Assembly: GCF_016097555.1 (NCBI RefSeq)
Contig: NC_054711.1
Coordinates: 37,776,152 to 37,840,151, forward strand
Origin: Gigantopelta aegis
Lineage: Eukaryota; Mollusca; Gastropoda; Neomphalida; Peltospiridae
Reading direction: 5' to 3'
Length of the DNA: 64,000 nucleotides
Each line of letters opens with the position of its first letter. The first letter of the stretch is position 1. The translations under genes and the position numbers were made by a program. Shown here piece after piece: positions 43,580 to 61,263 of this stretch. The notes under the pieces were generated by a model, which had not been told where the DNA came from, made no database searches, and saw only the letters and a list, made by a program, of their open reading frames with translations.

Positions 43580-43973
43580 TATAGAAAGAAAGAAATGTTT
43601 TATTTAACGACGCACTCAACACATTTTATATACGGTTATATGGCGTCAGACATATGGTTACGGACCACACAGATTTTGAGAGGAAACCCACTGTCACCAC
43701 TTCATGGGCTACTCTTCCGATTAGCAGCAAGGGATCTTTTATTTGCGCTTCCCACAGGCAGGATAGCACAAACCATGGCCTTTGTTGAACCAGTTATGGA
43801 TCACTGGTCGGTGCAAGTGGTTTACACCTACCCATTGAGTCTTGCGGAGCACTCACACAGGGTTTGGAGTCGGTATCTGGATTAAAAATCCCATGTCTCG
43901 ACTGGGATCCGAACCCAGTACCTACCAGCCTGTAGACCAATGGCCTACCACGACACCACCGAGGCCAGTCAGT
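43580..43973 (-). repeat. Chimeric SINE: SINE-B head with SINE-A tail
   Basis: Minus strand. The head and body to about GGCAGG...CTTCCCACAG are SINE-B. The 3' part (TTTAACGACGCACTCAACAC to GGCTACTCTTCCGATTAGCA) is SINE-A. The switch falls within GCAGCAAGGGATCTTTTAT, which both families share. A second copy of the same chimera is at 56434-56819. Confidence 0.92.
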
Positions 43974-44484: not shown

Positions 44485-45700
44485 TGTCTGTGTTCCGTCA
44501 GCCCTATATTCCCTCAGCTCTACGTTCCCTCAGCTCTGTGTTCCGTCAGCTCTGTGTTCCGTCAGCTCTGTGTTCCCTCAGCTCTGTGTTCCCTCAGCTC
44601 TGCGTTCCCTCAGCTCTATGTTCCCTCAGCTCTGCGTTCCCTCAGCTCTACTTTCCCTCAGCTCTACGTTCCCCCAGCTCTGCGTTCCCTCAGCTTTATT
44701 TCGCTCTATGTTCCCATAGCTCTGTGTTCCCTCAGCTCTATATTCCCTCAGCTCTATTTCCCTCAGCTCTGTGTTCCCTCAGCTCTGTATTCCCTCAGCT
44801 GTATTTCCCTCAGCTCGATGTTCCCTCAGTTCCGTGTTCCCTCAGCTCTATGTTCCCTCAGTTTCGTGTTCCCTCAGCCCTGTGTTCCCTCAGCTCTATA
44901 TTCCCTCAACTGTATTTCCCTTAGCCCTGTTTTCCCTCAGCTCTATGTTCCCTCAGTTCTGTGTTCCCTCAGCTCTATTTCCCTCAGTTCCGTGTTCCAT
45001 CAGCTCTATGTTCCTTCAGCTCTGTGTTCCCTCAGCTCTGTGTTCCCTTAGCTCCATATTCCCTCAGCTCTGTGTTCCATCAGCACTATATTCCCTCAGC
45101 TCTGTGTTCCCTCAGCTCCATATTCCCTCAGATCTGTGTTCCCTCAGCTTTGTGTTCCATCAGCTCTATATTCCCTCAGCTCTGTGTTCCCTCAGCTCTA
45201 TATTCCCTCAGCTCTGTGTTCCCTCAGTTCTGTGTTCCCTCAGCTCTGTGTTCCCTCAGCTCCATGTTCCCTCAGATCTGTGTTCCCTCAGATCTGTGTT
45301 CCCTCAGCTTTGTGTTCCAAAAGCTCTATGTTCCCTCAGTTCTGTGTTCCCTCAGCTCTATTTCCCTCAGTTCCGTGTTCCAACAGCTCTATGTTCCCTC
45401 AGCTCTGTGTTCCCTCAGCTCTGTGTTCCCTCAGCTCTACGTTCCCTCAGCTCTATTTCCCTCAGCTCTGTGTTCCCTCAGCTCCGTGTCACCTCAGCTC
45501 TATGTTCCATGTTCCCTCGGCTCTGTGTTCCCTCAGCTCCGTATTCCCTCAGCTCTGTGTTTCTCTCAGCTCCATGTTCCCGTGTTATCTCAGCTTCGTG
45601 TTCCCTCAGCTCCGTGTTCCCTCAGCTCCATGTTCCCGTGTTCCCTCAGCTCCGTGTTCCCTCTCAGCTCTGTATTCTCTCAGCTCTGTGTTCCCTCAGT
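44485..45700 (+). repeat. 16-bp minisatellite in intron 1 (about 75 units)
   Basis: Unit GTTCCCTCAGCTCTGT with changes at a few positions and occasional 3-bp deletions. Because 16 is not a multiple of 3, all forward frames read the same 16-residue peptide and stay open, giving spurious long frames. Each unit contains TTCCCTCAG, which looks like a 3' splice site. Ends about 170 bp before the exon 2 acceptor. Confidence 0.97.
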
Positions 45701-56141: not shown

Positions 56142-56301
56142 CCTTGAGAAGAAAGTCTATCAGTTTAAGCGTGAGAACGAAGCACTGAGGTCTTCTGCGT
56201 CGATCAGCTTCCGCACCAGTCATTCCACAAGTCCGACCCCTCCGTCCATCAGTTCGTACACTGACAAGTCACTGCTGCATGACCAGTCATCACAGATACA
56301 G
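56142..56301 (+). CDS. Exon 3 of the unrecognised coiled-coil host gene
   Basis: Internal exon with acceptor TTATCTTTTGTTAG and donor ATACAG|GTACGT. It enters in phase 2, so that CG from exon 2 plus C gives Arg, and leaves in phase 0. The start encodes a short basic coiled coil (LEKKVYQFKRENEALRS) and the rest a Ser/Thr/Pro-rich stretch (SFRTSHSTSPTPPSISSY), then TDKSLLHDQSSQIQ. The last 20 nt of the exon plus the first 15 nt of the intron form the first unit of a 35-bp tandem array that fills the next 1.4 kb, so the true donor is followed by many near-identical donor-like copies. I chose the first copy because it joins exon 4 in phase 0 and because the upstream sequence is non-repetitive. 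Confidence 0.8.
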
Positions 56302-57690
56302 GTACGTTCTATCTTGTCCAGTCTTCACAGATACAGGTACATTCTGTCTCGTCCAGTCTTCACAGATACAGGTACATTCTATCTCGTCCAGTCTTCACAG
56401 ATACAGGTACATTCTATCTCGTCCAGTCTTCACAGAAAGAAAGAAATGTTTTATTTAACGACGCACTCAACACATTTTATTTACGGTTATATGGCGTCAG
56501 ACATATGGTTAAGGACCACACAGATTTTGAGAGGAAACCCGCTGTCGCCACTACATGGGCTACTCTTCCGATTGGCAGCAAGGGATCTTTTATTTGCGCT
56601 TCCCACAGGCAGGATAGCACAAACCATGGCCTTTGTTGAACCAGTTATGGATCACTGGTCGGTGCAAGTGGTTTACACCTACCCATTGAGCCTTGCGGAG
56701 CACTCACTCAGGGTTTGGAGTCGGTATCTGAATTAAAAATCTCATGCCTCGACTGGGATCCGAACCCAGTACCTGCCAGCCTGTAGACCGATGGCCTGCC
56801 ACGACGCCACCGAGGCCGGTAGTCTTCACAGATACAGGTACATTCTGTCTCGTCCAGTCTTCACAGATACAGGTACATTCTGTCTCGTCCAGTCTTCACA
56901 GATACAGGTACGTTCTGTCTCGTCCAGTCTTCACAGATACAGGTACGTTCTGTCTCGTCCAGTCTTCACAGATACAGGTACGTTCTGTCTCGTTCAATCA
57001 CCACAGATACAGGTACGTTCTGTCTCGTTCAATCACCACAGATACAGGTACGTTTTGTCTCGTTCAATCATCACAGATACAGGTACATTTTGTCTCGTTC
57101 AATCATCACAGATACAGGTACGTTCTGTCTCGTTCAATCATTACAGATACAGGTACGTTCTGTCTCGTCCGGTCTTCACAGATACAGGTACATTCTGTCT
57201 CATCCAGTCACCACAGATACAGGTACGTTCTGTCCCGTCCAGTCATCACTGATACAGGTACGTTCTGTCTCGTTCAATTATCACAGATACAGGTACGTTC
57301 TGTCTCGTCCAGTCATCACAGATACGGGTACGTTCTGTCTCATCCAGTGATCACAGATACAGGTACGTTCTTTTTCGTTCAATGATCACAGATATAGGTA
57401 CGTTCTGTCTTATCCAGTCATTACAGATACAGGTACGTTCTGTCTCATCCAGTCATCACAGATACAGGTACGTTCTGTCTCATCCAGTCATCACTGATAC
57501 AGGTACCTTCTGTCTCGTCCAGTCATCACTGATACAGGTACGGTTTGTCTTGTCTAGTCATCACAGATACAGGTACGTTCTGTCTCATCCAGTCATCACA
57601 GATACAGGTACGTTCTGTCTCGTCCAGTCATCACAGATACAGGTATGTTCTGTCTCGTCCAATCATCATAGATACCAGGTACGTTTGGGC
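56288..57690 (+). repeat. 35-bp minisatellite that copies the exon 3 donor site (about 29 units)
   Basis: Unit CACAGATACAGGTACGTTCT plus GTCTCGTCCAGTCAT. The first unit straddles the exon 3 / intron 3 border (56301/56302); 3 more units precede, and 25 follow, a SINE insert at 56434-56819. Nearly every unit keeps ACAG|GTACGT or ACAG|GTACAT. All three forward frames are open across the array. Confidence 0.97.
56434..56819 (-). repeat. Chimeric SINE (SINE-B head, SINE-A tail) inside the 35-bp array
   Basis: Same chimera as 43580-43973. The target duplication AGTCTTCACAGA comes from the array unit, so it inserted after the array had expanded. Confidence 0.95.
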
Positions 57691-57859
57691 TCATCTTTAA
57701 CAAAGAAAACTCAGGACATAAATTTGATGAAAACTGATTACTTGTTATTATGCGTTATATTATTAGTAAGTGTTTATGACAATTACATGTACCTGCAGAA
57801 TGTGAGTTCAAAATGAAGAGAGTTCACCTGATTTTTGCAGGTAACTTGTTTGAACTTTG

Positions 57860-58827: not shown

Positions 58828-59141
58828 GACCGGTCTCGTCCGTGCTCCCGCTGCAGTCAGTGTTCCAGTCTGGTTAGCAACTCTCCCAAGTTTGAGAAGA
58901 CCTTCACCTTCAAAGGTCATCTCAACTCAGGCTCCAGTCACAATGAAGGTCAAGGTCAGAGGTCACCTCACAGGTCACCGAACATGGTACATGGGCAGAT
59001 GAATGGAATCCTGACTAAAGCTTTGATCCATCACACACATGGGGCTGATGCGCTGGACAACGGTCAGACGAGCGTAAAACAACGCAAAAATTCTCTACCA
59101 GAAATTATATCTGAACCTGACGGACGCCTGAAGAAAATCAG
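58828..59141 (+). CDS. Exon 4 of the unrecognised coiled-coil host gene
   Basis: Largest exon seen (314 nt). The acceptor follows a long T-rich tract (TTTTTCTCAG) and the donor is ATCAG|GTTTGT. It enters in phase 0 and leaves in phase 2. It encodes a Cys cluster (CSRCSQC at exon residues 6-12), then polar Ser/Gly/His-rich sequence (SPKFEKTFTFKGHLNSGSS, RSPHRSPNM), and ends basic (LPEIISEPDGRLKKIR). No transmembrane segment. The Cys cluster is short and has no clear second half, so I would not call it a zinc finger. The exon looks like a linker between coiled coils in a cytoplasmic scaffold; that is inference. Confidence 0.78.
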
Positions 59142-61186: not shown

Positions 61187-61263
61187 GTCAACTATTTCTA
61201 AGGAAGTTCAGTGTTCGCTGTACCCGCCCAGTGGTGCCTCATTGGAGGAACAGCTTATTGAGA
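61187..61263 (+). CDS. Exon 5 of the unrecognised coiled-coil host gene; gene continues beyond the window
   Basis: Short exon (77 nt) with acceptor TTTGCCTTTCAG and strong donor GAGA|GTAAGAAT. The entering phase 2 matches exon 4 (AG+G = Arg) and the exon leaves in phase 1. It encodes STISKEVQCSLYPPSGAS followed by LEEQLIE, which looks like the start of another coiled coil. A dispersed repeat (60905-61150) abuts its upstream side. No later exon could be recognised before the window ends, so the C-terminus lies further downstream. Confidence 0.72.

Follow-up and report, generated by a model that had tools for sequence, protein, structure and literature searches.

A 35-bp minisatellite that repeats a predicted 5' splice site 28 times behind a predicted coding exon of Gigantopelta aegis

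The predicted exon, the array and its SINE

The locus lies within a window of 64,000 nucleotides, C13:37776152-37840151, the whole stretch of DNA that was analysed, and consists of a predicted coding exon, a 35-bp minisatellite that begins inside the end of this exon, a SINE-like element lodged within the minisatellite and further predicted exons downstream (Table 1). The four predicted exons, from 56142-56301 to 66608-66696, yield an open frame of 213 codons when joined in phase, its end resembling a coiled coil; this fit of frame and phase with the three downstream exons would be compatible with a first unit that holds a coding exon's true donor. The exons 56142-56301, 58828-59141 and 61187-61263 each gave one match in a search of the genome, at their own place, and no second copy of the gene was found among the candidates scored there. 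The predicted product yielded nothing better than an E value of 0.13 against Pfam and no match in the PDB. On a home-made score the acceptor of exon 56142-56301 reaches 3.2, that of exon 4 12.8 and another predicted acceptor of the gene 8.9; the donors predicted for exons 4 and 5 reach 1.7 and 1.1 on an informal donor matrix. The low values among these (3.2, 1.7 and 1.1) leave the exon model in some doubt. The original prediction had called the first exon 'exon 3', a number that finds no support, as a home-made exon finder returned no convincing exon upstream.

Table 1. Features of the locus (window positions) and of exon-headed arrays elsewhere in the assembly
Feature	Position	Strand	Remarks
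Predicted coding exon	56142-56301	+	Last 19-20 nt form the first unit copy; open frame, phase fits exons 58828, 61187 and 66608
Predicted genuine 5' splice site, GTACGTTCT	56302-56310	+	In-frame join to exon 4; score 6.4 (informal matrix)
Proximal block	56317-56435	+	Three complete intronic donors (56337, 56372, 56407), all GTACAT, and a partial fourth unit
Left target-site duplication, AGTCTTCACAG	56425-56435	+	11 bp, identical to 56821-56831
SINE-like element, antisense	56436-56820	-	Within a unit; 95.8% identical copy at 43586-43969
In-frame TAA in the SINE	56734-56736	+	Ends all extensions from donors 56838 onward
Right target-site duplication, AGTCTTCACAG	56821-56831	+	
Distal block	56821-57693	+	25 more donor copies (56838-57679)
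Next predicted coding exon ('exon 4')	58828-59141	+	Acceptor TTTTTCTCAG, open frame
Following predicted coding exon ('exon 5')	61187-61263	+	
Further predicted exon, beyond the window	66608-66696 (L007:2608-2696)		Continues the chain
Array L055	G000:C4:113664600-113665450	minus	Pfam YBD, E 6e-17; 35-bp unit, 20 shared exon nt
Array L063			C2H2 zinc finger, best Pfam E 1.9e-7, under family cut-off; 31 shared nt, 2 mismatches
Array L056			Hint-like, E 4.8e-5, under cut-off; 19 shared nt, 2 mismatches
Array L060			Cysteine-rich open exon, no Pfam match; 13 shared nt
Array L047			Open exon, no Pfam match; 18 shared nt, 2 mismatches

The junction at 56302 reads CCAGTCATCACAGATACAG/GTACGTTCT (a slash marks the exon-intron border), and the 35-bp unit is made up of the last 19-20 nt of the exon and 15-16 nt of the intron. 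That the unit straddles the exon end and the donor, as originally proposed, is borne out by the 19 nt that the exon tail has in common with the first intronic copy, with one mismatch. We count 29 units in register, namely the donor at 56302, which is taken as genuine, and 28 intronic copies with donors from 56337 to 57679, in agreement with the number of about 28 given at the outset; GT is present in all 29 donors, including all 28 in the intron. Tandem Repeats Finder (TRF) reports the array as two segments of period 35, 56283-56436 and 56821-57685, with scores of 280 and 1315. The steps of 35 bp from 56302 that had been foreseen hold in general and fail at two places, across the SINE (431) and before the last copy (36).

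The element at 56436-56820 is presumably a SINE in antisense orientation, a designation that follows sequence motifs, and its role as the sole interruption of the array was correctly anticipated. Its deletion in silico together with one flanking target-site duplication leaves an unbroken 35-bp register, an empty site from which it follows that the SINE landed in an already repeated unit. Other matches to this element in the window are 76-92% identical.

A DNA search of the whole assembly (1.149 Gb) with 56838-57685 as query returned three matches, these being the query itself, the proximal block and an array on C6, although by the tool's own warning the absence of a match is no proof of rarity. 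The C6 array is 64% identical to the query and was rejected as another copy of the unit, its consensus being a different 32-bp unit. Tandem arrays as such are common around the locus: 15 merged arrays (period of at least 10, at least four copies) occur in 124 kb, two of which are the blocks of the 35-bp array. One array of 140-bp units (4.4 copies, L007:1913-2572, window coordinates 65913-66572) stops 36 bp short of the predicted exon at 66608. Another, at 44487-45699, contains about 77 copies of a 16-bp unit, TCTGTGTTCCCTCAGC, each of which resembles a 3' splice site with a pyrimidine tract and CAG, and it is crossed by open frames that reach 327 codons.

Strength, variation and coding consequences of the copied donors

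The claim that every unit repeats ATACAG/GTACGT applies to 16 of the 29 copies (15 of the 28 intronic ones) and not to the rest. The 9-mer of the genuine donor, CAGGTACGT, is kept by 16 of the 28 intronic copies; seven carry CAGGTACAT, in which G is replaced by A at position +5, and five show other single changes. The first five intronic copies (56337, 56372, 56407, 56838 and 56873) all have A at +5 and read GTACAT, so that the nearest copy to match the genuine donor in strength is the one at 56908, 606 nt downstream and past the SINE. On the informal matrix the genuine donor obtains 6.4 against 2.1 for the +5 A copies, and their predicted duplexes with U1 differ little in energy (-7.6 and -7.1 kcal/mol, respectively). 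The +5 A copies are weaker but not dead, their score of 2.1 still standing above those of the donors predicted for exons 4 and 5. Neighbouring copies also share their base at -13, and the clustering of +5 A can therefore reflect a unit type that spread locally in the absence of selection.

Within the 28 intronic copies the donor 9-mer accounts for 12 of the 73 variant cells in nine of the 35 columns, and its conservation above the rest of the unit is not significant (permutation p 0.19). Position +5 varies in eight of the 28 and is amongst the most variable columns. Selection on the copied donors is thus unsupported as far as the 9-mer is concerned, with one reservation: columns -7 to +4 (counted over 56317-57693) hold only three of the 73 variant cells in 11 columns, with a best-window permutation p of 0.0019, and the stretch -7 to +6 gives p values of 0.007-0.024 when its place is fixed and 0.10-0.29 when any window is allowed, both stretches having been picked post hoc from copies that are not independent. 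The extra C of the last unit was dropped from the variation count to hold the register. At first sight the low variation at -7 to +4 is an unexplained point against simple neutrality, which does not predict it; it is no clean evidence for donor function either, because the stretch excludes +5.

Each of the 29 donors was joined to exon 4 by script, and the frame and stops were read. Donor 56302 yields the open chain. The expectation that steps other than multiples of three would shift the frame into exon 4 holds for 56337 and 56372, which encounter stops 172 and 47 nt into that exon, and the expected in-frame gain of 35 residues after three steps is realised at 56407 (+105 nt). Neither pattern extends beyond the proximal block, as all 25 donors past the SINE run into its TAA before they could reach exon 4, and 56407 is consequently the single one of the 28 downstream donors with an in-frame product. 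The unit was likewise said to contain no stop in any frame, which is true of the consensus unit and the proximal block, whereas 56820-57685 contains nine stop triplets distributed among the three frames, including one that spans the edge of the SINE.

Origin of the array and competing explanations

Three possibilities had been put forward at the outset, a noisy splicing device, a source of length-variable isoforms and a merely tolerated array, and the evidence favours the last: one of 28 downstream donors is in frame, the nearest five are changed at +5 and the 9-mer is not significantly conserved. We consider it probable, judging from the sequence, that a minisatellite was seeded at a donor and is tolerated, with splicing mostly at the first copy and some leakage into nonsense-mediated decay. 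A tandem duplication over the exon end and donor (about -19 to +16) would have started the minisatellite, which may then have expanded on the intron side until it counted 29 units, presumably through slippage or unequal exchange, the reading frame of the exon being preserved provided that splicing starts from the first donor; the SINE would subsequently have inserted into one of the repeated units. The spliceosome would mostly choose the first donor, since this one completes the exon of 160 nt and is followed by five copies that are weaker at +5. A minor share of splicing at 56337-56407 would generate two products with a shifted frame and a premature stop, along with a third that gains 35 residues, and use of the later copies would produce exons of at least 696 nt that end at the stop in the SINE and are exposed to nonsense-mediated decay. 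By analogy with ABCA7, where one-unit retention amounts to 2 +/- 1%, leaky use of the nearest copies is likely, which leaves the noisy splicing device some plausibility. The array would on this account be tolerated and not maintained for splicing. The shared exon tail, the phase-consistent exons, the empty site, the stop analysis and the weak first five copies speak for a tolerated array, as do the p value of the 9-mer, the commonness of arrays, the five exon-headed arrays amongst 18 inspected (see below) and the human precedents. Against it stand the +5 A copies that are not dead, the 16 intronic copies with the genuine 9-mer, the low variation at -7 to +4 and the cryptic AGs described below.

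Some of these points would fit an array that acts as a splicing dial under selection, in which the number of copies and the strength of their donors would govern how large a part of the transcripts goes to decay or to the isoform with 35 additional residues. Downstream donors are reported as used in IFI6 and ABCA7 in the excerpts of PMC4526556 and PMC5954066, and both the many copies that retain the genuine 9-mer and the quiet columns from -7 to +4 could be read in the same way. We nevertheless regard such a dial as unlikely, given that +5 is variable, that the weaker copies are precisely the five nearest and that the stop in the SINE precedes 25 of the 28 donors; in ABCA7, moreover, one-unit retention is independent of array length according to the excerpt of PMC5954066, though skipping of the next exon does depend on it.

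The array could also be an ordinary non-coding minisatellite beside a wrong exon model, a reading to which the product without a meaningful Pfam match or any PDB match, the low acceptor and donor scores of the exons and the donor-like arrays without a clear exon elsewhere (13 of 18 and three of three inspected) would be congenial. Four exons in phase, an open chain of 213 codons whose end resembles a coiled coil, and single matches in the genome for three of the exons argue against it and make it hardly probable. A recursive-splicing ladder, in which splicing to a unit AG rebuilds a donor, or cryptic exons, in which splicing to a slightly earlier AG creates a tiny exon, must be judged highly improbable. 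AG/GT occurs at 28 of the 29 unit borders (the exception, 57328, has GG/GT), but this is automatic when any donor is copied, and on the home-made score the border AGs reach only -1.7 to 2.9, below the acceptor of exon 56142-56301 (3.2) and far below that of exon 4 (12.8) or the other predicted acceptor (8.9), so that a good acceptor abutting the donor is missing from the array. Within 56302-57690, 46 other AGs, three of them in the SINE, exceed 3.2 on the same home-made score and reach up to 7.3; because they outscore the exon's own acceptor, cryptic small exons within the array are possible. Intron gain through tandem duplication of an AGGT segment, the Rogers model described in an excerpt of PMC4974935 that also mentions fission yeast genes with multiple 24-bp AGGT duplicates, would suit the AGGT within the units and is extremely improbable, as the acceptor at 58828 lies about 1.1 kb past the array in other sequence and the duplicated segment did not supply both splice sites.

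Similar arrays in the assembly and in human genes

The assembly was searched for three perfect CAGGTAAGT motifs with gaps of 12-41 nt or of 23-41 nt, with the reversed motif as a control. The wider range of gaps gave 247+121 matches (reversed control, 150+35) and the narrower range 84+104 (reversed control, 99+28). We took 18 separate arrays (11 and seven more) from the 100 matches listed per search and inspected their 5' ends, an 'exon' being recognised by eye on the basis of its open frame, its acceptor and the shared tail, with no preset cut-off. In five of the 18 arrays inspected among the matches listed, a probable coding exon terminates at the first donor and contributes its tail to the unit (Table 1); in the other 13 an exon is absent or doubtful. 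The layout of L055 matches that of the array in the window, with 20 exon nt per 35-bp unit behind the donor of a TEAD-like exon, Pfam YBD being the YAP-binding TEAD domain. Three CAGGTGAGT arrays on C1 (L043-L045) have no clear exon.

With gaps of 23-41 nt, at least 16 separate CAGGTAAGT arrays can be told apart by eye from C1 to C9:8.4 Mb among 100 of 188 matches listed, and at least nine of the reversed motif among 100 of 127 matches listed, which reach C13; without the five exon-anchored arrays at least 11 of the former remain among the matches listed. These numbers are too few for us to claim an enrichment of CAGGTAAGT arrays. Three CAGGTRAGT motifs in a row gave 792+691 (1483) matches in the whole assembly against 159+170 (329) for the reversed motif, a 4.5-fold excess for which a few very large arrays are at least partly responsible. 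As 71 of the 100 places listed belong to one array, the excess is silent on how often arrays are seeded.

Donor-headed arrays thus appear to recur in this genome. It is decidedly doubtful that minisatellites seeded at functional 5' splice sites form a recurrent class here (the window gene and probably five others, including a TEAD-like and a zinc-finger gene) in which copy number tunes leakage to downstream donors and decay as a fast-mutating splicing dial. Dozens of near-identical donors right after an exon constitute a natural test of how the spliceosome chooses amongst equal 5' splice sites, and if several such arrays exist in one genome the rule of choice, be it first copy, exon length or strength, could become readable from ordinary RNA-seq with no constructs. 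This is the modest addition to a kind already known: its apparent recurrence in this genome makes donor choice amongst equal sites testable by RNA-seq.

'Exon-anchored donor minisatellite' is a grouping made in this analysis for arrays of the IFI6, ABCA7 and CBS type, with in-register tandem units of 10-100 bp and GT donors in later units. The kind is already known in human genes, and the array in the window, with 29 units of 35 bp and GT in 28 of 28 later units, is another example, most likely a tolerated one. The IFI6 unit measures 12 bp and its use keeps the frame, in contrast to the unit described here, which is 35 bp long, frame-shifting and interrupted by a SINE. The CBS array reportedly has an effect on splicing, as Lievers et al. 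(2001) are said to have found.

The excerpt of PMC4526556 states, citing Turri et al. 1995, that two downstream repeat units of IFI6 serve as donors and give rise to three mRNAs; the title of Turri et al. 1995 refers to a minisatellite giving multiple splice donor sites. Both IFI6 and the window array are minisatellites with units that carry donors, the use of which as donors is reported for IFI6. A survey of variable internal tandem repeats in human duplicated genes describes, in the excerpt of PMC2812944, 27 intron modifications from tandem repeats at exon-intron boundaries, with units of 30 bp repeated four times on average; unlike the window array, they are not described in that excerpt as arrays of copied donors. 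Two further papers, PMC1831785 and PMC3039753, were rejected as precedents on the strength of their excerpts.

In ABCA7, according to the excerpt of PMC5954066, the VNTR of intron 18 is built of 25-bp units, the first GT coinciding with the donor of exon 18; the reference has 23.7 copies, and the numbers found in people range from about 12 to 427. Splicing at the donor one unit further along, which breaks the frame, occurs at 2 +/- 1%, and stop-bearing transcripts rise when decay is blocked; one-unit retention is not length-dependent, and the effect of array length is on the next exon, exon 19, the skipping of which rises with it. The ABCA7 array is described as beginning at the GT, whereas the unit in the window takes in about 20 nt of the exon. 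For the 31-bp VNTR of CBS, c.1444_1467+7(16_21), copy-number polymorphism is documented in the excerpt of PMC2630376 (alleles of 16-21 copies), while the window array is known from one assembly; by its name the CBS unit comprises the last 24 nt of the exon and 7 nt of the intron, which is nearly the layout of the array in the window.
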